This document shows, in pieces, positions 12,177-63,457 of a DNA stretch of 64,000 nt (within the stretch, counting starts at the first letter, position 1; every line of letters begins with the position of its first letter). The notes under the pieces were generated by a model. The model did no database searches. It had not been told where the DNA came from and saw nothing but the letters and a program-made list of their open reading frames with translations. Source of the stretch: Streptomyces phaeolivaceus (GTDB lineage Bacteria > Actinomycetota > Actinomycetes > Streptomycetales > Streptomycetaceae); NCBI RefSeq assembly GCF_009184865.1, contig NZ_CP045096.1:3348001-3412000 (forward strand), read 5' to 3'. The translations under genes were made by a program, and so were the position numbers.

Positions 12177-13193
12177 TCACCGAGCCGTCCCTGACGCAGT
12201 CGCTTTGACCTGCGGCGAGGAATCTTGAGTGGCGAAGTGGCCGTGACCCGCGGGTGTCGCCGTTCGGAGATGTGGAGAGTCTTCGCCAATGGATCTTGCC
12301 GGATGGTGAGGATGCTTGGCGAGTGCTGCTGCGGCGAGTTCGATGGCGTCGGGGTAGATCGAGGCGTGTGCGTGTGCGTCGAGGTCGGTCGGGATGCCGC
12401 GCTGGTGATTGTGGGTCTGCAGTGCGAGGCGCCGGTATCGCCAGTGGTGAGGGACGGCGGCTGGGGAGTCCGGCCAGGGCGGGACGGTTTCGACCGCGGT
12501 TTGGTGGGCGAGGGTGAGTTGCTGGGGTGTGAAGCGGCGTAGGAGGCGGTTCGCCCGGTGTTGAGCGGTGGTGATCTCGGGGCATATGGAGAGGTCGAGG
12601 TGGGGTTCTCCGAGATCGCTGAGCCAGATTCCGTGCCGCGTGCAGACCTTGTGGTGAACCGGGAGGTGGACGGGGACGGGCTGGCGGATACCGAGGCGGG
12701 CAGTGCACTGGTGGCAGGCGGTCGTGGCCCGGACGGGGCCTTCGTCGGTGCCGAACGCGGGGAGTGCGTGAGCCAGGCCGGCGGGAGTGGTGCCGGTGAG
12801 ACGAGCGAGTTCGTGCAGGGCCTGGGTGGCTGCGGGGGCGAGCATATGGTGCTGGGCTCGGTCGTCGAGGTTGTTGGTCTTCGTGGAGAACCAGGTGGGC
12901 AGTACTGCCAGGACCTCGGTGACTGTGAGGTGGTTGGCCTGGGCGATCCGGGCCAGGTAGGAGTTGAGGGTTTCTCCTGCGATCGGGGCGACTCGCTGTG
13001 GCAGCACCGGTGTCCGCTCCGACCTGAGGGCGAGCGTGCGGGATATCCCGGATGGGACCTGGTCAGGGTCCTCCTGCGAGTTGGTTTCCTGGCGGTCGGC
13101 CGGGACCAGCAGGTGGCGTCGGCGGTCCAGCTCGCGGTAGAAGGTTCTCTGGCTTCCCTCGAAGCCGAGGTCGGCAACTTCCTTGAACAGGAC
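12177..13193 (-). pseudogene. TniQ-like transposition protein, cut upstream by an IS3 element
   Basis: TniQ proteins help choose targets for Tn7/Tn5053-like transposons. A frame from the GTG at 13007 to the stop at 12177 encodes 276 residues that start with the TniQ-type LPQRVAPIAGETLNSYL and contain a zinc-finger-like CHQC followed by the VCTRHGIWL block. The same frame stays open upstream to the IS end at 13193 and includes an HTH-like segment (LFKEVADLGFEGSQRTFY). The original 5' end, or an upstream fused gene, has therefore been removed by the insertion. No TniA, TniB or transposase partner is in view, so it is probably a remnant. Confidence 0.65.
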
Positions 13194-13220
13194 TGAACCG
13201 CCCCGGGTTCGGTAGAGATC

Positions 13221-14150
13221 TCAGATTGTGGTTGTGACCTGGGGTTTCGTGGATTCCTTGTAGTGATTGGCCTCGTACTCGGCGGGTGGAACGTGGCCTA
13301 TCTCACCGTGGAGTCGGCGGTGGTTGTACCAGTCGGCCCACTCGGCGGTGGCCAACTCGACCTGGGAGAGCGACTTCCAGGGACGCTGGGGTTTGATCAG
13401 CTCGGTCTTGTACAGGCCGATCGTCGACTCCATCAGGGCGTTGTCGTACGCATCCCCGACTGATCCAATACTCGCCGCGATGCCGGCCGCGTCGAGGTGT
13501 TCGGCGAGGCGGAACGACGTGTACTGCGACCCGGCATCGGAGTGGTGGATCAGCTGCCCCGGAGTGTGCCGGCGGTCCTCGCGGTCACGCTGCCACAGGG
13601 CCATCTCCAGTGCATCCAGGACGAGTTGGGTCTCCTTGGAGGCGGAGGCGGACCAGCCGACGATGCGCCGGGAGAACGTGTCCACGACGAAGGCGACGTA
13701 GACGACACCGCTCCAGGCGGCGACATGCGTGAAGTCGGCGACCCAGCAGCGGTTCGGGGCACGGGCGACGAAGTCGCGGTCGAGAAGGTCCGGGGCCCGC
13801 CCGGCGGCCGGATCGGTGATCGTCGTGATCACCTTCCTGCCGCGGACGGCGCCGGTGATGCCGAGTTCGCGCATCAGACGCTCGATGGTGCAGCGGGCCA
13901 CCATATGTCCCTGCCGGTTCAGCTCGCGCCATATCTTCCGGGCCCCGTAGACACGGTAGTTGGACGTGTAGACCTCCTGGATCCGTTCTTTGAGTTCCTC
14001 ATCGCGCACGGAACGGGCGGAGGGAGTTTCAAGGCGTTTCTTGTGGGCGTAATACGTGGAAGGGGCGATCTTGCAGTCGTGCTCGGTGAGCGTCCTGCAG
14101 ATCGGCTCGACGCCGCCGAAGCGGTCCCGGTGCTCGTCGATGAACGCTAC
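13221..14150 (-). CDS. IS3-family transposase OrfB (DDE catalytic part)
   Basis: This is the integrase-core half of an IS3 transposase. The rve/DDE residues are in VADFTHVAAW (D), LIHHSDAGSQYTS (D) and ALMESTIGLYKTELI (E), followed by the typical YNHRRLHGEIGHVPP. The first ATG in frame is at 14009, but family sequence (FIDEHRDRFGGVEPIC) extends up to about 14150 without a start codon. The full product must therefore come from a -1 frameshift out of orfA, as in other IS3 elements. All the catalytic residues appear to be intact. Confidence 0.93.
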   Translation of the reverse strand, partial: VAFIDEHRDRFGGVEPICRTLTEHDCKIAPSTYYAHKKRLETPSARSVRDEELKERIQEVYTSNYRVYGARKIWRELNRQGHMVARCTIERLMRELGITGAVRGRKVITTITDPAAGRAPDLLDRDFVARAPNRCWVADFTHVAAWSGVVYVAFVVDTFSRRIVGWSASASKETQLVLDALEMALWQRDREDRRHTPGQLIHHSDAGSQYTSFRLAEHLDAAGIAASIGSVGDAYDNALMESTIGLYKTELIKPQRPWKSLSQVELATAEWADWYNHRRLHGEIGHVPPAEYEANHYKESTKPQVTTTI

Positions 14151-44501: not shown

Positions 44502-45710
44502 ATGGCCGGCATCACCGGGATGGGCACCACCTTCAACCTTCCCAACTACGCGGGCGAACTCTTCGCGATCACGCCGGAGGAGACCCCGTTCCTGTCGGCC
44601 ATCGGCGGCCTCACCGGCGGTGGCATGACCACGTCGCAGGAGTTCGAGTGGCAGACCTCCGACCTGCGCGACCCGGCGCAGCGCACGAAGGTGGAGGGCG
44701 CGACCGCGCCGACTGCCGAGGAGCGGGTGCGGGCGAACGTCCGCAACGTCGTGCAGATCCACCAGGAGAAGGTCTCCGTTTCCTACACCAAGCAGGCTGC
44801 GGTGGGCGCGCTGGCGACGCCCGGCGCGGCGCCGTTCCGGGGGGTGAACGGGGAGAACCCGGTCGCCAACGAGATGGACTGGCAGGTCGCGCAGGCGCTG
44901 AAGTCGGTGGCCCTGGACGTGAACTACTCGTTCCTCAACGGCGAGTTCGCGAACCCGACGACGAACGCCACCGCCCGGAAGACCCGGGGCATCCTGGAGG
45001 CCATCACCACGAACCGCATCTCGCGGGGCACCACGGTGACCGGAGCCTCCTCGGCGACGGACACGATCACGTCGACGGGTCACGGCCTGTCGGACGGCAA
45101 CAAGATCGTGTTCCGGGACACCGGTGACGCCACCGGCATCATCGCCGGGCGCGTGTACTACGTGGACGCGGTCGACGCGAACACCTTCAAGGTGTCGGCG
45201 TCCAGCGGCGGCGCGGCCATCACCCTGGGCACATCCTCGGGGATCTCCTACACCGTCCCCTGGTCGACGGCCCTGACCACCCTCCACGTCGACGACATGC
45301 TCCAGCTCGCCTACGACAACGGCGGGATCAGCGAGCAGGAGACCGCGACCCTCGTGACGAACTCGATCCAGAAGCGGGCGATCACGAAGGCCTACGCGGA
45401 CGCGTACGGCAAGGCGGTCCTCATCACCGAGGCCAGCCGCACCGTCGGCGGCGTCAGCGTTCAGACCATCGAGACCGACTTCGGGCGGCTCAACATCATG
45501 ATGGACCGGCACATGCCGCAGGACTCGATCCTGGTGGCCTCGCTGGAGCAGCTGATGCCGGTCATGCTCAACATCCCCGGCAAGGGCGTCATGTTCGAGG
45601 AGGACCTGGCGAAGACCGGCGCCTCGGACGAGAAGCAGCTGTACGGCGAGATCGGCCTGAAGTACGGCAACGAGCGCGCCCACGCGGTCCAGACCGGTCT
45701 GGTGATCTGA
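44502..45710 (+). CDS. Major capsid protein (SU10-like, HK97 fold)
   Basis: The main shell protein, 402 residues. It starts with AGITGMGTTFNLPNYAGELF and has the family stretches EETPFLSAIGGLTGG, FEWQTSDLRDP, VSVSYTKQAAVGAL, and at the end LNIMMDRHMPQDSILVASLE and QLYGEIGLKYGNERAHA. Between about residues 178 and 252 an extra beta-rich domain is inserted (ITSTGHGLSDGNKIVF ... RVYYVDAVDANTFKVSA). It probably projects from the capsid surface. A strong GAGG RBS precedes ATG 44502. Confidence 0.92.
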   Translation: MAGITGMGTTFNLPNYAGELFAITPEETPFLSAIGGLTGGGMTTSQEFEWQTSDLRDPAQRTKVEGATAPTAEERVRANVRNVVQIHQEKVSVSYTKQAAVGALATPGAAPFRGVNGENPVANEMDWQVAQALKSVALDVNYSFLNGEFANPTTNATARKTRGILEAITTNRISRGTTVTGASSATDTITSTGHGLSDGNKIVFRDTGDATGIIAGRVYYVDAVDANTFKVSASSGGAAITLGTSSGISYTVPWSTALTTLHVDDMLQLAYDNGGISEQETATLVTNSIQKRAITKAYADAYGKAVLITEASRTVGGVSVQTIETDFGRLNIMMDRHMPQDSILVASLEQLMPVMLNIPGKGVMFEEDLAKTGASDEKQLYGEIGLKYGNERAHAVQTGLVI

Positions 45711-49196: not shown

Positions 49197-51827
49197 GTGT
49201 CGGACGCCCTCACGGTCGGCGAACTCGTCGGCTTCATCCGCGCGGACGACAGCGGAATGCGCCGCGGCCTGGCCAACAGCCAGCTCCGCATGCGCGGCTT
49301 CCAGGTCGACACCGAAGGCCGACTGAGGGATCTGCGCGGCCGGTTCGTCAACGAGTCGCAGGTCATGGCCATGTCCCTCCGGGACGACCTGACCGGCGCC
49401 ATCACGGTGGCGAACAACGCCACCAACCAGTTCACCCGCGACGCCAACGGCCGACTCCGCGACCTCCAAGGCCGGTTCGTCCGCACCGGCGAAGCCGCCC
49501 GCCAGATGGGCGACAACACCCGCACCGCCCTGCGCGGAGCCAGCAGCGAAGGCGACCGGTTCGCCGGCGTCCTCGGCCGGATCGTGGGCGCGGCCGGCGG
49601 GCTCGCCCGGGTGGCGGCTGGGGCGGCTCCGATCGCGGGGGCTATCGGGGCGGCGCTGCCGCTGGCGGCCGCGCTGGTGGCGACGCTCCAGAACATCGCC
49701 CCCGCGGCTGGTGTCGGTGCGACGGCTCTGCTGGCGATGCAGCAGGCGTCGGGCGTGGTCAAGCTGGCGGCTGTCGGGATGGGCGATGCCCTGTCGGCGG
49801 CGCTGGACCCGGCGAAGGCGCAGGAGTTCGAAGAGGCGCTCGCCAAGCTGTCTCCCGAGGCGAAGCAGTTCGCCCTCGCGGTGAAGGAGGCGGCACCGGC
49901 CCTCCGCGACCTCCAGCAGGACGTCCAGAACCGCGTGTTCCGCGGCCTCGCCGAGGACCTGGAGCGCGCGGGCGCCGCCGCTCTGCCGGTCGTACGGCGG
50001 GAGCTGCTGGCCACGGCGGGCGCCGTGAACCTGATGGGCAAGGGCGTCATCGACGCCGCCAAGAACCTGGCGGAAGACGGCACGCTCGGCAAGGCGATGG
50101 GCTCCGCCTCGAAGGGCCTGCTCAACCTGTCCTTCATCCCTGGGATCGTCGCGACGGCGCTCGGTCAGGTCGCCGCAGCGGCCGGGCCGTCGTTCGAGCG
50201 GCTGACGGAGAAGGCCGGGGACGCCGCGTTCCGGATCGGCGACAAGCTGGGCGAGGCGTTCGAGTCCGGCGCCATGGAGCGGGCGATCGAGGACGCGATC
50301 GACCTGATCGGCGACCTCTTCGACGTCGTCGGCAACGTCGGCTCCATCTTCGGCAGCATCTTCGAGGCCGCAGACGTTTCCGGCGGGGGCCTGATCGGCA
50401 CCCTCAAGACGATCACCGAGGCGCTGGACGAGGCGTTCGCGTCCGAGCCGGTGCAGGCGGGGCTCTCGGCGCTGTTCGAGACCGTGGCGAAGCTGGCATC
50501 GACAGCGGCGCCGCTCCTCGGCCAGGCGCTGGGGGTGCTGGGCCCGGTCCTAGAGGCGCTAGGCCCCCCCGCCCAGCGGCTGATCGAGGCGCTCGGCGAG
50601 GCCCTCGCCCCGGTCATCGAGGCCCTGGAACCGGTCCTGGTGACGGCCGCCGAGGCGGTCGGCGCACTCGTCGACGCCGCGCTGCCGCTGCTGCCGGTCG
50701 TCGGGGAACTCGCGGCGGCACTGCTGCCCGCGCTGACCCCGCTGCTGGAGGCCTGCGTCACCGTCTTTGAGGCCCTGGCTCCGGTGATCGAGGAGACCGC
50801 CGGGATCCTCATGGACACCCTGGCGCCGATCCTGGAGAACCTGCCGGGGATCATCGAGCCGCTCGCGGAGATCCTCGCCACGACGCTCGTCGCGGGCATC
50901 ACGATCCTCGGCGAGCTGATCGAGGAACTCGGGCCCACGCTGGTAACCCTGGGCGAGGCGTTCGGCGAACTCCTGGTGGCCGTCGCACCGCTGCTGGAGA
51001 TGATTGCCCAGCTCGTCGCCGAGGGCCTGGCGGCGATGATGCCCGTCATCGAGGAACTGATCCCGGTCATCGCGGCACTCGCCGTGATGCTGGGCGGCTT
51101 CCTCGCCGACGTCATCTCCGGCGTCATGGTGCCGGTCCTTCAAGCCGTGATCGCGCTGCTCCAGGGCGATTTCTCGGGGGCCTGGGAGTACGCGAAGCAA
51201 GCCGTCATCAACGCCGGGCTGGCCGTCATCTCGGCCGTCACCGGCATGGCGTCGGGGGTCTTCGACGGTGTCCGGCGGGCGATCAGCCACCTGGCCAGCA
51301 TGCCGGGTCAGGCCGTGGGCGTCCTCGGCAACCTCGGCGGGCTCCTGATGTCCGCTGGATCGTCGCTGATCCAGGGGTTCATCGACGGCATCATGAGCCG
51401 TCTCGCGGATGTGGCGTCCGCCGCCTCGTCGGTGGTCAGCGCGGCGCGGGACTACTTCCCCTTCAGCCCCGCCAAGAAGGGCCCGTTCTCGGGCAGGGGC
51501 TACAGCGTCTACTCCGGCCGGGCCCTGGTGACCGACTTCGCCAGGGGCATGGAGGCCGCGATGCCGAGCGTCCGCTCTGCCCTCGACGGGATGCCGGGCC
51601 TCGGTCCGGTCCTGGGCGGCCTGGGGATCGGCGGGGGTCTGGCGCTGCCGGGCGAGCTGTCCATGGCGGGCCTGGGGAGTCTCGGTACGCCAGGCGCCCA
51701 GGCCGTGGACGTCAACGTGCGCCTGCGTGTCGATGGCAGCGACGAGACCCTCCTACGGATGGTGCGCGGCTGGGTGGACATTGAGGGCGGCGGCGACGTG
51801 CAGACCGCACTCGGAAAGGCGGTGTGA
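49197..51827 (+). CDS. Tape measure protein
   Basis: This is the longest tail gene apart from the tip. The 876-residue protein sets tail length (about 130 nm by the usual 1.5 Angstrom per residue). It starts at GTG 49197 and has a repeated N-terminal element (GRLRDLRGRFVNESQ and GRLRDLQGRFVRTG), then long hydrophobic and Ala/Leu-rich helical segments (PIAGAIGAALPLAAALVATL, LLPVVGELAAALLPALTPLL) and a C-terminal PFSPAKKGPFSGRGYSVYSG typical of tape measures. Confidence 0.93.
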   Translation: MSDALTVGELVGFIRADDSGMRRGLANSQLRMRGFQVDTEGRLRDLRGRFVNESQVMAMSLRDDLTGAITVANNATNQFTRDANGRLRDLQGRFVRTGEAARQMGDNTRTALRGASSEGDRFAGVLGRIVGAAGGLARVAAGAAPIAGAIGAALPLAAALVATLQNIAPAAGVGATALLAMQQASGVVKLAAVGMGDALSAALDPAKAQEFEEALAKLSPEAKQFALAVKEAAPALRDLQQDVQNRVFRGLAEDLERAGAAALPVVRRELLATAGAVNLMGKGVIDAAKNLAEDGTLGKAMGSASKGLLNLSFIPGIVATALGQVAAAAGPSFERLTEKAGDAAFRIGDKLGEAFESGAMERAIEDAIDLIGDLFDVVGNVGSIFGSIFEAADVSGGGLIGTLKTITEALDEAFASEPVQAGLSALFETVAKLASTAAPLLGQALGVLGPVLEALGPPAQRLIEALGEALAPVIEALEPVLVTAAEAVGALVDAALPLLPVVGELAAALLPALTPLLEACVTVFEALAPVIEETAGILMDTLAPILENLPGIIEPLAEILATTLVAGITILGELIEELGPTLVTLGEAFGELLVAVAPLLEMIAQLVAEGLAAMMPVIEELIPVIAALAVMLGGFLADVISGVMVPVLQAVIALLQGDFSGAWEYAKQAVINAGLAVISAVTGMASGVFDGVRRAISHLASMPGQAVGVLGNLGGLLMSAGSSLIQGFIDGIMSRLADVASAASSVVSAARDYFPFSPAKKGPFSGRGYSVYSGRALVTDFARGMEAAMPSVRSALDGMPGLGPVLGGLGIGGGLALPGELSMAGLGSLGTPGAQAVDVNVRLRVDGSDETLLRMVRGWVDIEGGGDVQTALGKAV

Positions 51828-53209
51828 CCGTGGCCTACCCGTGGGTGCTGGTGGAGCTGCTGCTGGGCGGCGTGTGGGTGGACATCACGAACGACGTCTA
51901 CGTGCGCGGCCGGATCACCATCACGCGCGGCCGGAAGGACCGCGCATCCCGGCCGTCGCCGTCCCGGTGCCGGTTCTACCTGAAGAACAATGCGCAGGTG
52001 CGGGCCCGGTACTCGCCGGTCAACCCGACGGGCGAGTACTACGGGCTGCTGCTGCCGAACACGGTCTGCCGGGTGAGCGTGAATCCGAACGGCACGCAGC
52101 TGTACCGCTTCTGCGGGGTGATCCCGGACTTCGTGCTGGAGCGGCACTCCACCGACAACGACCGCTGGGTCTCGGTCGACGCGTTCGGGCTGGTGTACGC
52201 CCTCCAGGGCGGCAACCCGCCCGCCTACGACGCCATGCGGCGCTTCATGGCACTCCAGACCCCGCGCGCGTACTGGCCGCTGACCGACGGCGAGGAGGCC
52301 GGACATGCACTGGAGGTCGCCACCGGCGCTCAGCCGGTGCGTGCGGTCGGCGAGTCCGGCTCGTTCTACCAGGGCCAGCCGAACTGGGGCTCCGGCAAGC
52401 TCGCGCCGTGGCTGGAGCCGGTGGTGGGCCTGCCGAACGGCAAGGTCGGCATGCTCACCGCCCCCATCAGCATGGCCGCCGACGAGGGCGGCTGGTCCTT
52501 CGACCACGTCCGTAGCGGCCCCGGGAACGCCGACTACTGGGACTACCGCGACATTGGCGCCGGGAACAACGACGACCAACGCGTCACCATGCTCACGGGC
52601 GTCGACCCCGCCTTCAACTCCTTCTCCGTCAGCATCCGCATCGAACGGGAGACCGGCGGCCTCGCGGACACCCTCGTCGCCGACGTCACCGCGCCACAGC
52701 TGTTCAACAACGACGCCCCCCACCACATCCGCCTCTCCGTGGCCACCGCAGGCGGCGGCGCGAACACGCTGGTGCAGCTGCACATCGACGGCGTCCCCCA
52801 GCTCGGCGCGACGACGGTCCTGAACGTCGCCTACCGGCCCCTGAACAGCGTCACGTTCGGCTGGGACCAGTCCGACGCCCCCTCCGGCAGCAACTTCACC
52901 ACCGGGCATTGGGCGTACTGGGGCGCCAACCCGCCGGACGCCCTCGACTGCTACAAGGCCCTCCTCGGCCACACCGGGGAACGTGCCGGCCGCCGCGTCG
53001 AGCGGCTGTGTGACGAGAGCGGGATCCCGCTGCGGGTGATCGGTGACCTGGACGGCACTCCGCTGATGGGCCCGCAGCGCGCCGACAACCTGATGAGTCT
53101 GCTGGAGGCGGCGATCGCGGTGGACGGCGGCACGCTGACGGACGCGACGGACGAGCTGGCGCTGGAGTACCGGACGAACCGCTCGAAGTACAGCCAGGGG
53201 GTCTCGTGA
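51824..53209 (+). CDS. Minor tail protein, N-terminal half, with lectin-like insert
   Basis: A 461-residue tail-tip protein (GTG 51824). The N-terminal 150 residues (VLVELLLGGVWVDITNDVYV, YYGLLLPNTVCRVSVNPNG, RFCGVIPDFVLERH) look like distal tail/baseplate proteins. A LamG-like domain follows (AYWPLTDGEEAGHALEV ... VQLHIDGVPQLGATT). It stops at DELALEYRTNRSKYSQGVS, where related one-piece minor tail proteins as I remember them carry on into the segment now found 419 residues into the next gene. So this is probably the front half of a split protein. Confidence 0.82.
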   Translation: MTVAYPWVLVELLLGGVWVDITNDVYVRGRITITRGRKDRASRPSPSRCRFYLKNNAQVRARYSPVNPTGEYYGLLLPNTVCRVSVNPNGTQLYRFCGVIPDFVLERHSTDNDRWVSVDAFGLVYALQGGNPPAYDAMRRFMALQTPRAYWPLTDGEEAGHALEVATGAQPVRAVGESGSFYQGQPNWGSGKLAPWLEPVVGLPNGKVGMLTAPISMAADEGGWSFDHVRSGPGNADYWDYRDIGAGNNDDQRVTMLTGVDPAFNSFSVSIRIERETGGLADTLVADVTAPQLFNNDAPHHIRLSVATAGGGANTLVQLHIDGVPQLGATTVLNVAYRPLNSVTFGWDQSDAPSGSNFTTGHWAYWGANPPDALDCYKALLGHTGERAGRRVERLCDESGIPLRVIGDLDGTPLMGPQRADNLMSLLEAAIAVDGGTLTDATDELALEYRTNRSKYSQGVS

Positions 53210-56200
53210 GCGTGACGCACGTGTGGGTCGGGGCGACTACGCACACCAGCGCCTGGGTGCGCGGGAAGGTCACCGGGACGTCGACCCGGCTGGCTGTGTC
53301 GCTCGCCTCATCGCTGTCGGCGCCGGCGTACTTCGGCCCGGTCGTGCCCACGGCCGACGGCATCGCCTCGTTGCAGGCGACGGGGCTTCAGCCGGGGGTG
53401 CGGTACTACTACGCCCTGGAGGATGACGGCGTCCTCGACACAACGTTCTCGGGGACGTTCCGCACGCATCCGGTCGCGGCCGGAGAGCGCGCGAGCTTCA
53501 CCTTCGGAGCGGCCGGGGACGCGGGACTGACCGGCGCGCCGGACGACTCGTACATCACCTCGGCGGTCTCCAACAACCCGGTGTTCGACACGATGCGCGC
53601 GCAGTCGGCCGCGCAGGACTGGCTGTTCTTCAGCCATCTCGGGGACCTGCACTACCGGAACATCGCCGTCGCGACCGCCGCGACCTACCGCACCGCGTAC
53701 GACGACAACCTGACGTTCAACGGCACCCTCGGCGCGAACGCCCGGCAGGGCCGGTTCTTCCGCGACACTGCGATGACCTACGTCTGGGATGATCACGACT
53801 ACGGCCCAAACAACTCGGACAGGACCGCCACCGGCAACGCGACCGCGAACTCCGTGTACCGGGAGAGGGTGCCCCACTACACGCTGCCGTCGGCGTCCAC
53901 CATCAACCAGAGCTGGCAGGTGGGAAGGATCCTCTTCGTCGCCTCCGACGTCCGCTCCGCGCGCGACCCGAACAGCGACCCGCAGTCGCCGACGAAGACC
54001 ATGCTGGGCTCGGCTCAGAAGACGTGGATGGAGAACCTCCTCGCGGCCAACGCGGGCGGCGCCGAGGCCCTCGTGTGGATCACCCCATCGCGGTGGCTCG
54101 CCGACGGCACCGGCACCGACACCTGGAACTCGTTCCTCCACGAACGCGACCAGCTCATCGAGATGTTCGGCGACACAGGCTGGCTCGACCGCATGATCCA
54201 GCTCACCGCCGACCAGCACAACCTGTCCCTCTGCTCCGGCCCCGGCAACCCCTGGGGCGGATTCCCGGTCTACATGTTCGCCAGCATGGACAGCGACTAC
54301 AGCACCCTGGACCCGCTGTACGACCTCGGCGCCGTCGCCGGCCGCCAGCAGTACGGCACCGTGCAGGTCCGAGACCGCGGGCACACCATCGAGTTCGAAG
54401 GCACCGGATGGATCAACGGCGTCCCGTGGCGGTCCCACACGGCGTACGCACACATCGGCAACCCGATCCTCGCCCTGGACTACGCGACCCACCTGAAGGC
54501 GCCGTTCCGGCCGAGCGTGGGCGTCGACGGCACCGTCAACGACGTCACCGCGGCACGGCAGGACGGCGGAGAGGCCCGCGTGTTCGAGGCCGACGGCCCG
54601 CGCGGCACGAACACGGTCGGCAGCTACCCGGACTCCGTCACCGTCCAGGTTGCCTCAGACGACCAGCTCGCCGACCAGGCCAGCTGGAGAGTCCACCTCG
54701 GCACCAGCCCCGACGCCCGGATCCCCGAGGTCCACGTCGACCTCGCCAAGGCCGGGAACACCGGAGCGGTCGCGGACGCGGTGGCCGGCGCCTCCCTCGG
54801 CAACAAGCTGAACATCACCCACCCGCCGGAGGATCTCCCGCCGGACGACGTGGAGCTGATCGTCGAGGGGTACAGCGAGCGGATCGGCGAGCACGAATGG
54901 GCGTGGCAGGCCAACACGACGCCCGGCCGGCCGTGGGACGTGCTGGAGATCGCGCAGGACCGCGGGGCTGGGGACGTCGTCGAGGACTTCGAGGACGCGA
55001 CCCTCAACGTCGTCGTCACGAACGGCGGGTCGCTGCCGTGGCTGCGGACGAACGCCCAGTTCCATGCTGGGGCGTGGTCGTTCCGCTCGGGGGCGATCAG
55101 CAACAACCAGACGTCCGACGCAGTCGTGACCGTGCCTGCGGGGGCGTCCACGCTGACGTTCTGGTATCGGACCTCCTCGGAGTCGGCTGGCGCCGGATTC
55201 GAGGGTGACCGGCTGCTCGTGCTGGTCGACGGCGTGCAGGTGCTGCGGGCTCAGGGCGCGACCGGGTGGACGCAGTTCACGGTGAGCGTGGCGTCGACCA
55301 GCGCGGTGACGTTCCGATACATCAAGGACAACAGCGCGGCGTCCGGCGAGGACGCGGTGTACATCGACGACATGGCGTTCACTGTGCCGCTGTCCTACCT
55401 GGCCGGTCCGGACCGGCCGAACCGGTGGGACACCTCCCGCAGTCTGCTGGTGAACGCGGTCACGGCCGCAGCGACCCAGTTCGTCGTGCACACGCCGCCG
55501 GACGGAATTCGGGACCGGGCGCCGTGGATCCAGTCCAGTGGGATCACTGCCCTGTTCCCCGGTCACTTCCCCGTCGACCTGGCGCTCGGCGGGGAGGTCG
55601 TCCGCTGCACCGCGTGCACGCCGTCCTCCCTGGACCAGTTCGGCCGTTCGGCGTCGTCCGGGTGGGGCTCGGCGACCGTGGGCGGTGCCTGGTCGACGTC
55701 GGGCGGCTCGGCGTCGGACTACGACGTGAACGGCTCGGTCGGCCGGCACTCGCACGGCACGAGGAATGTTTTCCGGATCACGTCGCTGAACTCGCTGTCG
55801 CTGGCCGACGTGGAGGTGAGGGCGAGCATCACCCTGCCGGTGGTGCCGACGGGCGACACGATGTCGGCGTTCCTCCTGGCCAGGGGCGATATTGCGGCCG
55901 GGTCGTACTACTTCGCTCGGCTGCTCGTGAGCACGGCGAGCACGGTGCAGCTCAGCATCCGCAAGCGCCTGCCCGCTGAGACGCTTCTCGCGACCGCGCC
56001 GCACACCCTGCCGTTCACTGCGGGGGCGACGTACAAGGTGCGGCTCCAGATCGAGGGGACGACGGTCCGGGCGAAGGCGTGGCCGGTGGCTGGGATCGAG
56101 CCGGAGGATTGGGAGGTGTCGGTTACCGATACGAGCCTGGCGAGCGGGGTGGTGGGCTGCGGTTCGTTCATCACGACCGGCAACACGAACGTCCTGCCGG

Positions 56201-56334
56201 TCGTCTTCAGCTTCGACGAGTTCGAGGTTTTTCCGCAGGTGATGACTGTGCGGAGGGCCATCAACGGCGTGGAGAAGCCGCACGCGGCCGGGGCTCCGGT
56301 CTCGCTGGCTCAACCGGCCCCGCTGGGCCTGTAG
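53206..56334 (+). CDS. Tail-tip protein: PhoD-like metallophosphatase fused to the second half of the minor tail protein
   Basis: A 1042-residue protein (GTG 53206, overlapping the previous stop). Residues 1-85 are a fibronectin-like lead-in and about 86-410 a PhoD-type phosphodiesterase/phosphatase: LGDLHYRNI (146-150 GDLHY), YVWDDHDYGPNNSDR (W194-G200), VASDVRSARDP, WITPSRW and LTADQHN (D336, H338). From about N419 (PILALDYATHLKAPFRPS) the sequence reads as the second half of the minor tail protein. Two beta-sandwich, carbohydrate-binding-like domains follow. PhoD enzymes can cut teichoic acid or phospholipid esters, so a cell-wall depolymerase in the tail is likely; this is an inference. 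Confidence 0.8.
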   Translation: MSVTHVWVGATTHTSAWVRGKVTGTSTRLAVSLASSLSAPAYFGPVVPTADGIASLQATGLQPGVRYYYALEDDGVLDTTFSGTFRTHPVAAGERASFTFGAAGDAGLTGAPDDSYITSAVSNNPVFDTMRAQSAAQDWLFFSHLGDLHYRNIAVATAATYRTAYDDNLTFNGTLGANARQGRFFRDTAMTYVWDDHDYGPNNSDRTATGNATANSVYRERVPHYTLPSASTINQSWQVGRILFVASDVRSARDPNSDPQSPTKTMLGSAQKTWMENLLAANAGGAEALVWITPSRWLADGTGTDTWNSFLHERDQLIEMFGDTGWLDRMIQLTADQHNLSLCSGPGNPWGGFPVYMFASMDSDYSTLDPLYDLGAVAGRQQYGTVQVRDRGHTIEFEGTGWINGVPWRSHTAYAHIGNPILALDYATHLKAPFRPSVGVDGTVNDVTAARQDGGEARVFEADGPRGTNTVGSYPDSVTVQVASDDQLADQASWRVHLGTSPDARIPEVHVDLAKAGNTGAVADAVAGASLGNKLNITHPPEDLPPDDVELIVEGYSERIGEHEWAWQANTTPGRPWDVLEIAQDRGAGDVVEDFEDATLNVVVTNGGSLPWLRTNAQFHAGAWSFRSGAISNNQTSDAVVTVPAGASTLTFWYRTSSESAGAGFEGDRLLVLVDGVQVLRAQGATGWTQFTVSVASTSAVTFRYIKDNSAASGEDAVYIDDMAFTVPLSYLAGPDRPNRWDTSRSLLVNAVTAAATQFVVHTPPDGIRDRAPWIQSSGITALFPGHFPVDLALGGEVVRCTACTPSSLDQFGRSASSGWGSATVGGAWSTSGGSASDYDVNGSVGRHSHGTRNVFRITSLNSLSLADVEVRASITLPVVPTGDTMSAFLLARGDIAAGSYYFARLLVSTASTVQLSIRKRLPAETLLATAPHTLPFTAGATYKVRLQIEGTTVRAKAWPVAGIEPEDWEVSVTDTSLASGVVGCGSFITTGNTNVLPVVFSFDEFEVFPQVMTVRRAINGVEKPHAAGAPVSLAQPAPLGL

Positions 56335-56346
56335 GAGGGAGGGTTC

Positions 56347-56874
56347 GTGCCGAATCCGTACGTGTACGCGGGGCAGATCGCGACGGCTGATCAGTGGAAT
56401 GCGGGCGTCCCGCGCATGGTGACGCAGGAGAACGACCAGACGGTCAACTCCGGCAGCACGGGGACGACGCTGGTCAACAGCGAGGTCACCGCGCAGTTGG
56501 AGCCGAACGCGCTGTACAAGTACGAGCTGTTCCTCTCGTACTCGGCTGATGGGGCGGCCGATTTCAAGTGGGCGTGGTCGCTCAGTGGGATGCTGATCTG
56601 TTCGTTCTCGCTGGCCAACGCGGCGTCGCTGTCGACGGCGTCGGTGAACGATGGCGGGTCGGTGATCATGCGGCGTGCTGCTGCGACGACGAACCGGATC
56701 GCGGGCGGCTCGGGGGCGGCGAACTTCCACTCGGCGTACGACTTCGGGACGCTTCAGACGGATGCGGCGCCGGGGCCGATCACGCTCCAGTTCGCGCAGA
56801 ACACGAGCAGCGCGAACGACACGATCCTGCGGGGCGGGAACCAGACGCGGTTCCTTTACCAGAGGATCCGCTGA
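56347..56874 (+). CDS. Tail fibre/receptor-binding-like protein
   Basis: A 175-residue beta-rich protein (GTG 56347 behind GGAGGGAGG). The N-terminus (NPYVYAGQIATADQWNAGVP) is typical of actinophage tail proteins placed after the tip; the rest (LYKYELFLSYSADGAADFKW) suggests a jelly-roll. Receptor binding is inferred from position. Confidence 0.75.
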   Translation: MPNPYVYAGQIATADQWNAGVPRMVTQENDQTVNSGSTGTTLVNSEVTAQLEPNALYKYELFLSYSADGAADFKWAWSLSGMLICSFSLANAASLSTASVNDGGSVIMRRAAATTNRIAGGSGAANFHSAYDFGTLQTDAAPGPITLQFAQNTSSANDTILRGGNQTRFLYQRIR

Positions 56875-60874: not shown

Positions 60875-61070
60875 ATGACCAGAGCATGGACGGTCTGTGG
60901 GGGCCGGTTCGGGGAGCGCGAAGAACAAGCGCTGGACGAAGGCCTGGTGATCGCCGGTGTCGGGGACCCGCTCTCACACTCTTGTCCCGATGAGGCGTTC
61001 GGCACCGTGGACCGCTGGAAGCACCAACTGCGGCTGTCCATCACGATGGAGATCGGAGACCTCGTCATGG
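60875..61070 (+). pseudogene. Fragment of an Mrr-like restriction protein (N-terminus)
   Basis: ATG 60875 begins TRAWTVCGGRFGEREEQALD and continues EGLVIAGVGDPL, the typical N-terminal domain of Mrr-like type IV restriction proteins, then skips to MEIGDLVMVPHPG, with sequence missing between. After about 61070 the frame no longer looks coding and the Fic frame takes over. So only a deleted 5' fragment remains. Confidence 0.65.
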
Positions 61071-61937
61071 TGCCTCATCCAGGCCCTCGCCGACGCCGGA
61101 GGCGACTTCCGCTACGACGCCGGCCTGCTCAACGGCCTGCACTTCATGCTTCAGGGCCACCACCTCGACAAACGCCCCGGCCGCTGGCGCGACGGGCCCG
61201 TCTACGTCACCAGCCCCGACGACCCTCTGGTCCCGGCCTATACCGCTCCGGACCAGACGGACGTCCCCGCGTTGATGTCGGAGTTCATCGACTGGCTCAA
61301 TGAGGGCGACCTCGACGCCCCGGTCCACGTGCGCGCGTCGATGGCCCACCTCAACCTCGTCAAGATCCACCCGTGGAAGGACGGGAACGGGCGCATGTCC
61401 CGAGCGCTCTCCACCCTTGTGTTCTCCCGCGAGGCCCTGATGCCGCCCGAGTTCTCGTCCATCGAGGAGTGGCTCGGACGGGGCCAGAACACTTACGCCT
61501 ACTACCAGGTCCTGGAGGACGTAGGCGGTCCGCTCTGGAGTCCGGAGCGGGATACACGCCCCTGGATCCGGTTCTGCCTCACCGCCCACCACCGCCAGGC
61601 GCAGCAGGCCCAGCGGCGCTTCGACGTGATGTCCCGCACCTGGACCCGCCTGGTCGAAGCCGTCGAACCAACGGGCCTGGACGAGCGCGTCGTCCACGCC
61701 CTGCTGCCCGCCTTCTCGGACGCGAAGGTCCGCCGCACGGTCTACCAGCAGGACGCCGACCTCAGCGACCAGCAGGCCATCCGCGACATCCGAGAGCTCG
61801 TCGCCCGCGGCTGGCTCGCCCCTCACGGCAAGGGCCGCGCCCGCTACTACGCACCCGGTCCGCCCATGGATCCAGTCCGCGAAGAGGTCCGCCAGTCCAT
61901 GGAGCCGTATGCAGACCCGTACAGACGGAAACGGTGA
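61071..61937 (+). pseudogene. Fic-domain protein, 5'-truncated
   Basis: Fic proteins transfer AMP or related groups to target proteins. The frame is clearly Fic from ALADAGGDFRYDAGLLNGLH on, with the active-site motif VKIHPWKDGNGRMSR and a C-terminal winged helix (LSDQQAIRDIRELVARGWLA). About 80 N-terminal residues of the family are missing and the upstream frame belongs to the Mrr fragment. The catalytic core is whole, so an activity cannot be excluded, but there is no proper start. Confidence 0.75.
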
Positions 61938-62836: not shown

Positions 62837-63169
62837 AGTCCGAAGGACAGCGGTCGTCAGCCCCGGCCCGATCGCCCCGAACTCCCGCGCCGACGCCGTC
62901 ACGGCGTCGGCGCGCGTCACCGGCGGAGCATCTCGAACGGGTCGCCGTGCGTGAGTCGGCTCAAGGACTGCCCGAGGTGGTTCGGATCGTTCGTGGTCGG
63001 GTCGGAACCCGCGTCGTGATCTTGGTCGCCGAGATCGACCGGAAGCACACTCCCGTTCGGGAAGGGTGATCCCCCCGGCGAACGCCGTGACCCCCGGTGC
63101 GCGGGCGCGTTGAAGGGGCGTGCGGCCACGAAGTGGGGGTCGTGCTCACCGATCAAGAAGGAGAACGTG
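62837..63169. other. Intergenic region upstream of the chaplin gene
   Basis: These 333 bp hold one strong hairpin (62886-62914: a perfect stem starting CGCGCCGACGCCG with loop TCA) that may end the upstream gene, and presumably the chaplin promoter. I see no convincing gene. No clear sigma factor consensus could be placed. Confidence 0.5.
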
Positions 63170-63457
63170 ATGTCTCGCATCGCGAAGGCAGCCGTCGTCA
63201 CGCTCGGCACGTCCGCCGTTGTGCTCGGCGGCGCCGGCCTGGCCGCGGCGGACGCGGGCGCCGAGGGCAAGGCCGTCGGTTCCCCGGGCGTCCTGTCGGG
63301 CAACGTCGTCCAGGTCCCCGTCAACGTGCCGGTCAACGTGTGCGGGAACACGATCAACGTCGTCGGCCTGCTCAACCCGGCCTTCGGCAACGTCTGCGTC
63401 AACAAGAGCCACGACAGCCACAAGGGCAACCCCGGCCCGTCCGGCTACGGCCACTGA
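63170..63457 (+). CDS. Short chaplin (hydrophobic aerial-hypha surface protein)
   Basis: Chaplins assemble into amyloid films that let aerial hyphae leave water. The 95-residue protein starts at ATG 63170 behind AAGGAGAAC, has a signal peptide (KAAVVTLGTSAVVLGGAGLA, cut near AAA-D) and one chaplin domain: GSPGVLSGNVVQVPVNVPVN, then CGNTINVVGLLNPAFGNVC with the two conserved cysteines. A His/Gly-rich tail follows. It lacks a sortase signal, so it is a short chaplin. Confidence 0.93.
   Translation: MSRIAKAAVVTLGTSAVVLGGAGLAAADAGAEGKAVGSPGVLSGNVVQVPVNVPVNVCGNTINVVGLLNPAFGNVCVNKSHDSHKGNPGPSGYGH

Follow-up and report, generated by a model that had tools for sequence, protein, structure and literature searches.

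A PhoD-type phosphodiesterase domain predicted to split the tail hub of a Streptomyces prophage into two chains

Teichoic acids and phospholipids are the presumed substrates of the described exemplars of the PhoD family of metallophosphoesterases; the iron-site ligand is Cys in Bacillus subtilis PhoD and Asp in purple acid phosphatases (PAPs), which carry a His2 Asp1 Asn1 set at the divalent metal site, and a second PhoD subfamily with Asp at the iron site has been mentioned (PMC4223295). In phages, the role of genes annotated as alkaline phosphatase D or purple acid phosphatase was called unknown in 2025 (PMC12352085). Among the closest described systems is Thermobifida phage P1312, whose authors in 2015 took ORF22 to be secreted with a signal peptide, considered teichoic-acid hydrolysis, superinfection exclusion or DNA degradation for it, and remarked that gp38 of phage phiSASD1 resembles ORF21 at its N-terminus and the carbohydrate-binding module (CBM) region of ORF22 at its C-terminus (PMC4569894). 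Here we analysed a 64,000-nucleotide stretch of the Streptomyces phaeolivaceus genome (NZ_CP045096.1, positions 3,348,001 to 3,412,000; hereafter the window), in which two adjacent genes of a prophage tail module, encoding proteins that we call chain A and chain B, almost certainly represent one gp27-type tail hub split at one exact point by the insertion of a PhoD-type domain, as judged from sequence comparison and structure models.

Chain A ends with SKYSQGVS, and chain B, encoded at 53206-56334 (1042 residues), carries GDLHY at residue 146, WDDHDYGPNNSD at residue 194, LTADQHN at residue 333 and PILALDY at residue 420. The coordinates, the GTG start lying within the TGA stop and the motifs agree with an earlier sequence-only reading of this DNA, which had proposed that a PhoD domain entered a tail protein at one point and left it as two adjacent genes. 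This proposal was borne out by profile matches and by one-piece relatives. Residues 94-460 of chain A and 420-840 of chain B match consecutive parts of phrog_5313 (profile positions 439-793 and 793-1049; E 2.3e-92 and 3.5e-62), which argues that the presence of two hub halves in neighbouring genes is not a matter of chance. Among 120 matches listed of 255 found in public databases, 90 were PhoD-free, one-piece proteins, and both sides of the junction lay within the BLAST hits of 87 of them (three lacked one side), so the two genes have not always been separate and unrelated. The projected gap at the junction was −1 to +1 residues in 82 of the 87 and −6, 11, 21, 21 and 23 residues in the other five, the last three values coming from a high-scoring segment pair that starts at query residue 328. 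The undivided hub is also found in phages Yara, Dubu and phiSASD1. The expectation that the C-terminal part completes the fold of the first protein held to the extent that a one-piece relative (P0181) was predicted as a single gp27/gp44-type hub fold across the split point. Foldseek on the one-piece hub returned mostly lectin and multi-domain matches, and a separate structure comparison was clearer for the hub fold, with many lower-ranked rows of lectin fold too.

The split arrangement was found in Streptomyces prophages, Nocardiopsis and P1312. Our split-hub set (class I, n = 24) comprises the window, P1312, G093, Nocardiopsis lucentensis, G332 and 19 IMG/VR contigs, and amounts to 20 distinct loci at 95% identity in both chains (near-copies: P1312/L145/L148, G093/L050 and L046/L053). 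Outside it stand contig IMGVR_UViG_2896938458_000002 (L045), both chains of which are 100% identical to the window proteins, and L146 and L151, which resemble L145 and L055. In 24 of 24 loci, the chain A gene directly precedes that of chain B and is closed by a stop codon; with the first in-frame start taken as that of chain B, this start falls between 4 bases before and 10 bases after the end of the chain A stop, and chain B stands in frame 2, 1 or 0 relative to chain A in 12, 7 and 5 loci, respectively (9, 6 and 5 of the 20 distinct). Because a stop separates the genes throughout and chain B may occupy any of the three frames, the hub appears to be made as two chains and not through a fixed frameshift. 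A programmed frameshift or stop readthrough, yielding one continuous hub of 1.5 kilo-residues, would suit the 12 loci with chain B in frame 2 (−1), in nine of which, the window included, the genes overlap, but each of frames 0, 1 and 2 is represented, with spacings as large as 10 bases, and programmed frameshifting was rejected for this mix of frames. Moreover, a hub part before the enzyme was found in none of the 120 homologues of chain B listed (of 235 found), though the length limits of the search admitted such fusions, making a continuous hub exceedingly improbable; 115 of these 120 share the start residue of the window protein. The ratio of nonsynonymous to synonymous substitution rates (dN/dS) between the window and L144 was 0.21 for chain A, 0.22 for the PhoD domain and 0.24 for the C-terminal half of the hub, and between L150 and L174 it was 0.15-0.20, indicating purifying selection in both pairs. 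With these ratios and a split shared by all 24 loci, a pseudogene or a sequencing error as the source of the split was rejected.

The insert has a PhoD/PAP fold with an N-terminal beta domain. Across 121 sequences, including the 120 homologues listed, D105, D147, Y150, D195, D196, N202, D336 and H338 were invariant, and N203 was Asn or Asp in 120. The ligands were assigned by motif order from those described previously (PMC4223295), with a weak alignment to 2yeq for D336 and H338. In keeping with the complete PhoD-type domain of the sequence-only reading, the active site is intact: the family's set of metal ligands (Cys or Asp, Asp and Tyr for iron; DD, NN and D for the calcium sites; and His) is present, whereas the PAP set for the divalent site is absent at motif level, the Asp-rich WDDHD and ADxH occurring instead. 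We thus predict, on sequence grounds, that the enzyme is very probably catalytically active. Residues 1-60 of chain B were modelled confidently as strands of the N-terminal domain, and the strongest 12-residue hydropathy mean within the first 40 residues was 1.1 in the window protein and 0.53 in P1312 ORF22, reaching at least 2.0 in three of the 120 listed homologues. A signal peptide on chain B was unsupported by hydropathy and by the model, no signal-peptide program having been run.

Table 1 Features of the split-hub locus (positions in the window)
Feature	Position	Strand	Remarks
Tape measure protein gene	49197..51827	+	directly 5′ of the chain A gene, 4-base overlap; phrog_305, E 1.7e-75
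Chain A, N-terminal half of gp27-type tail hub, 461 amino acids	51824..53209	+	phrog_5313 profile 439-793, E 2.3e-92; one-piece relatives
Lectin-like domain in chain A, residues ~140-384	52241..52975	+	limits projected by BLAST from one-piece model P0181, residues ~344-564 of which match lectin-type folds
GTGA overlap, hub split point	53206..53209	+	GTG start of chain B inside TGA stop of chain A
PhoD/PAP-type metallophosphoesterase domain (the insert), chain B residues 1-419	53206..54462	+	
D105, iron-site ligand position	53518..53520	+	Asp in 121/121; Cys in 17/17 cellular rows; PMC4223295
D147 and Y150 (GDxxY), iron ligand positions	53644..53655	+	121/121; motif order
D195, D196, N202 and N203 (WDDHDYGPNN), calcium-site ligand positions	53788..53814	+	motif order
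D336 and H338 (ADxH), ligand positions	54211..54219	+	121/121; paired with Asp and His of 2yeq in a weak alignment
C-terminal half of hub, chain B residues 420 to ~585	54463..54960	+	phrog_5313 profile 793 onward, E 3.5e-62
Beta-sandwich, probably CBM4_9-like, chain B residues ~604-726	55015..55383	+	model strands; PF02018 precomputed in several homologues
CBM66-like beta-sandwich, chain B residues ~806-1010	55621..56235	+	
Next gene of the tail module	56347..56874	+	phrog_24062, unknown function, E 8e-43

The models also bore out a lectin-like domain in the first half of the tail protein and two beta-sandwiches in the second, the CBM4_9-like sandwich having no Pfam match in the window protein itself. 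An insert of ~200 residues near hub residue 90 (chain A ~70-115) was present in 90 of 90 listed one-piece hubs, was absent from 23 of 23 split hubs as well as from the window's own chain A, and was also missing in two of six intact hubs with a free PhoD gene. Because of these two hubs, and because the split hubs look like one lineage, the loss may be a single historical event; the idea that PhoD replaces this first lectin was set aside and is not used as evidence. In L006, L047, L048, L055, L145 and L148 (P1312, Nocardiopsis and near relatives), chain A has ~200 extra N-terminal residues.

Upstream of the split hub, PHROGs profiles identified minor head protein, major capsid, tail assembly chaperone and tape measure families. 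Within the major capsid protein (44502-45710), a segment at residues ~177-246 matches phrog_7765, 9370 and 4711, which are tail-fibre families and families of unknown function; in L155 these families also match early in the gene that precedes PhoD. The segment is possibly a surface-binding domain. Elsewhere in the window, an open reading frame (ORF) at 60957-61937 carries the motif HPWKDGNGR, which we take to be typical of Fic proteins, and 63110-63457 encodes a small secreted-looking protein, presumably resembling a chaplin of Streptomyces aerial hyphae.

A second viral scan yielded 78 loci, sorted by scripts, and by PHROGs on chosen loci, into four kinds. Besides the split hubs, PhoD forms the N-terminus ahead of ~400 residues belonging to a different minor tail protein (class II), is a free gene immediately following an intact hub (class III; L162, L163, L165, L168, L173 and L177) or belongs to other, mostly large proteins (class IV), two of which (L186 and L194) end in tail-fibre families. 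In L162, where the junction is undivided (YRTAASRYNQ-AATLGLTYG), the PhoD gene and the hub stop have a 4-base overlap. The C-terminal part of class II proteins matches phrog_1885 or 1887 where tested members match, L166 giving no match. The missing half of a second split hub was absent by PHROGs from seven upstream genes of L154, L172 and L200, although in L200 one of these genes matches phrog_5313 in its lectin region. When the class II C-terminal part was compared with the one-piece hub at profile level, the two did not match (probability 0.1-0.2%), and a search of solved structures with this part gave nothing meaningful. Class II is read here as an N-terminal fusion of PhoD to a minor tail protein, and that its C-terminal part is a hub would be a guess.

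Trees were built from chosen loci, a quick tree with Shimodaira-Hasegawa-like approximate likelihood ratio test (SH-aLRT) values for PhoD (71 rows) and one for the hub (64 rows). In the PhoD tree, the split-hub domains formed one group (SH-aLRT 100, 19 rows) and the domains beside intact hubs another (100, 5 rows), and these join class II in a larger group (99, 38 of 71 rows). L147 shares 79% identity with the window in the PhoD domain and 40% in chain A, and lies elsewhere in the hub tree, from which we infer that the PhoD cartridge has probably been exchanged between hubs. An alignment scan of genome contigs gave at least 80 loci; among the matches listed, L055 alone covers most of the query (1-829), and the other 79 lie within 1-435. 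PhoD was found at E 1e-60 or better in three of 392 genomes from the genus, one of them the window's own, and P1312 was the one named phage among 50,697 phage records with chain B coverage of at least 80%. Two further loci occur in the same host genome: an undivided prophage-type hub gene without the enzyme (L041, 4143-7271; G000:C2:7842000-7854000) and a remnant of another PhoD-hub prophage (L040, 5455-8681; G000:C2:2828000-2842000), whose ORF joins an N-terminal part unlike chain B to the last part of PhoD and the hub, its C-terminal end running on in another frame.

Taking these results together, we propose, with a probability of about 60%, that the locus encodes a split siphophage tail hub (gp27/gp44-type tail-tip ring) displaying a PhoD-type wall phosphodiesterase. 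Chains A and B would be translated in tandem and reassemble into one hub, which, should the hub be trimeric like gp27, would give three enzyme copies per virion; the enzyme would be tethered by its C-terminus only, beside lectin-like domains that would hold it at the cell surface, and might, less certainly, hydrolyse a phosphodiester wall polymer (teichoic acid or similar) at adsorption, bringing the hub to the membrane. The fusions to hub and tail proteins, the lack of an evident signal peptide, the lectin-like neighbours and the kept ligands point to a virion enzyme acting on the envelope. Location in the virion, and the tail location claimed in the sequence-only reading, appears highly likely from gene order, fusion to the hub and the predicted fold; a wall phosphodiester as the substrate stands at roughly even odds, with teichoic acid plausible. 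Several observations weigh against the proposal. Liquid chromatography-tandem mass spectrometry of P1312 recorded 24 of the 93 predicted proteins, with ORF21 and ORF22 both absent (PMC4569894, Table 1), a data set that seems shallow because ORF13 and ORF15-18, assigned to the tail, were also missed. Between the window and L136 (58% identity in chain A), dN/dS was 0.68 for chain A, 0.38 for the C-terminal half of the hub and 0.21 for PhoD; the high values may reflect domain exchange and tell against the claim for this pair. Ribosome-binding-like matches before chain B were modestly enriched (at least five consensus bases in 10 of 24 loci versus 59 of 426 background triplets; at least four in 20 of 24 versus 215 of 426), and the window had none by this consensus-base test. 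Finally, the hub tree placed the split hubs on one side of a branch, with weak support for a single split (71/20).

Other roles for the domain were considered. A hub-borne phosphodiesterase could be a receptor-destroying or release enzyme that frees virions from wall debris or unproductive sites: it would have the same architecture, the lectin-like domains adjoin the enzyme, and sequence does not separate adsorption from release, but an enzyme sited in the central hub and not in the peripheral fibres would point to penetration, and we consider release unlikely. Somewhat less likely again is cleavage of phospholipid head groups, in the manner of phospholipase D, once the hub has reached the membrane; the PhoD family counts Streptomyces chromofuscus phospholipase D among its exemplars (PMC4223295), but this enzyme and B. 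subtilis PhoD have Cys as the iron ligand where the window's family has Asp (121/121), and the lectin-like neighbours point to glycans, both being weak arguments. The P1312 authors predicted a signal peptide for ORF22 and did not detect it in virions (PMC4569894), as would suit a secreted, wall-anchored protein acting outside the virion in superinfection exclusion, DNA degradation or phosphate scavenging; the modelled strands and low hydropathy of the first residues, and the fusion of the enzyme to half of a hub in class I loci with a contig long enough to show it, make such a role improbable. Returning to the split hub with a wall phosphodiesterase, a broader and tentative view is that actinophage hubs carry an Fe/Ca phosphodiesterase as an exchangeable cartridge whose insertion forces the split, so that every virion would contain a two-chain hub, and that the enzyme would open teichoic or related phosphate polymers of the wall before DNA entry. 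If so, the cartridge, as a free gene, an N-terminal fusion to other minor tail proteins or a part of large fibre-like proteins, would be a general, overlooked class of entry enzymes in phages of Gram-positive bacteria.

With one-piece hubs, enzyme-bearing split hubs and free enzyme genes next to a hub all still present among related phages, the locus offers a clean comparison of the states before and after an enzyme entered a core and symmetric part of the virion, and a clean natural split of a virus tail part. A hub still assembling from two chains would mark a tail-tip site that tolerates a large cargo with a free N-terminus. The split hub may show how such phages cut through the host wall, and it gives phage 'alkaline phosphatase D / purple acid phosphatase' genes a testable function.

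P1312 ORF21/ORF22 (KT021004) has the same split hub with PhoD insert, a chain B 42% identical over its full length and a 4-base overlap, whereas the accessible part of its account takes ORF22 as secreted and does not describe an insertion into a hub (PMC4569894). In P1312 (L006), a glycosyl/glycerophosphate transferase gene (13071-14066) lies a few genes downstream of PhoD and may provide a link with teichoic-acid chemistry. B. subtilis PhoD (2yeq) and its family have Cys at the iron site, whereas the domain described here has Asp, shows no evident signal peptide and is fused to a tail hub. Unlike the gp27/gp44-type hubs of T4 gp27, Mu gp44 and the VgrG base, this hub carries lectin-like domains in its loops and is cut in two by the enzyme. 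The PAP-like gp26 of Microbacterium phage Rowlf is likewise a phage gene (PMC12352085), and the matching gene 36 of Microbacterium phage Phinky is flanked by genes for the major tail protein and a head-to-tail adaptor rather than set in a hub. GDPD-bearing baseplates and tail modules of Lactobacillus phage Ld17 and enterococcal phages also present a tail-borne phosphodiesterase thought to act on teichoic acids, but GDPD is another catalytic family, which the accessible part of the enterococcal survey describes as standing free, joined to a membrane domain or forming a fusion with BppU (PMC10194240). Tail-borne phosphodiesterases are thus an already known kind, and with the teichoic-acid idea for the P1312 homologue already published (PMC4569894), the 'new kind of depolymerase' of the sequence-only reading was too strong a claim. 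The open-licence literature searched, as far as its accessible text goes, yielded no description of a PhoD domain inserted in a tail hub; new here are the exact insertion into a gp27-type hub, the conservation of the two-gene form across hosts, the empty-site relatives and the ligand test.
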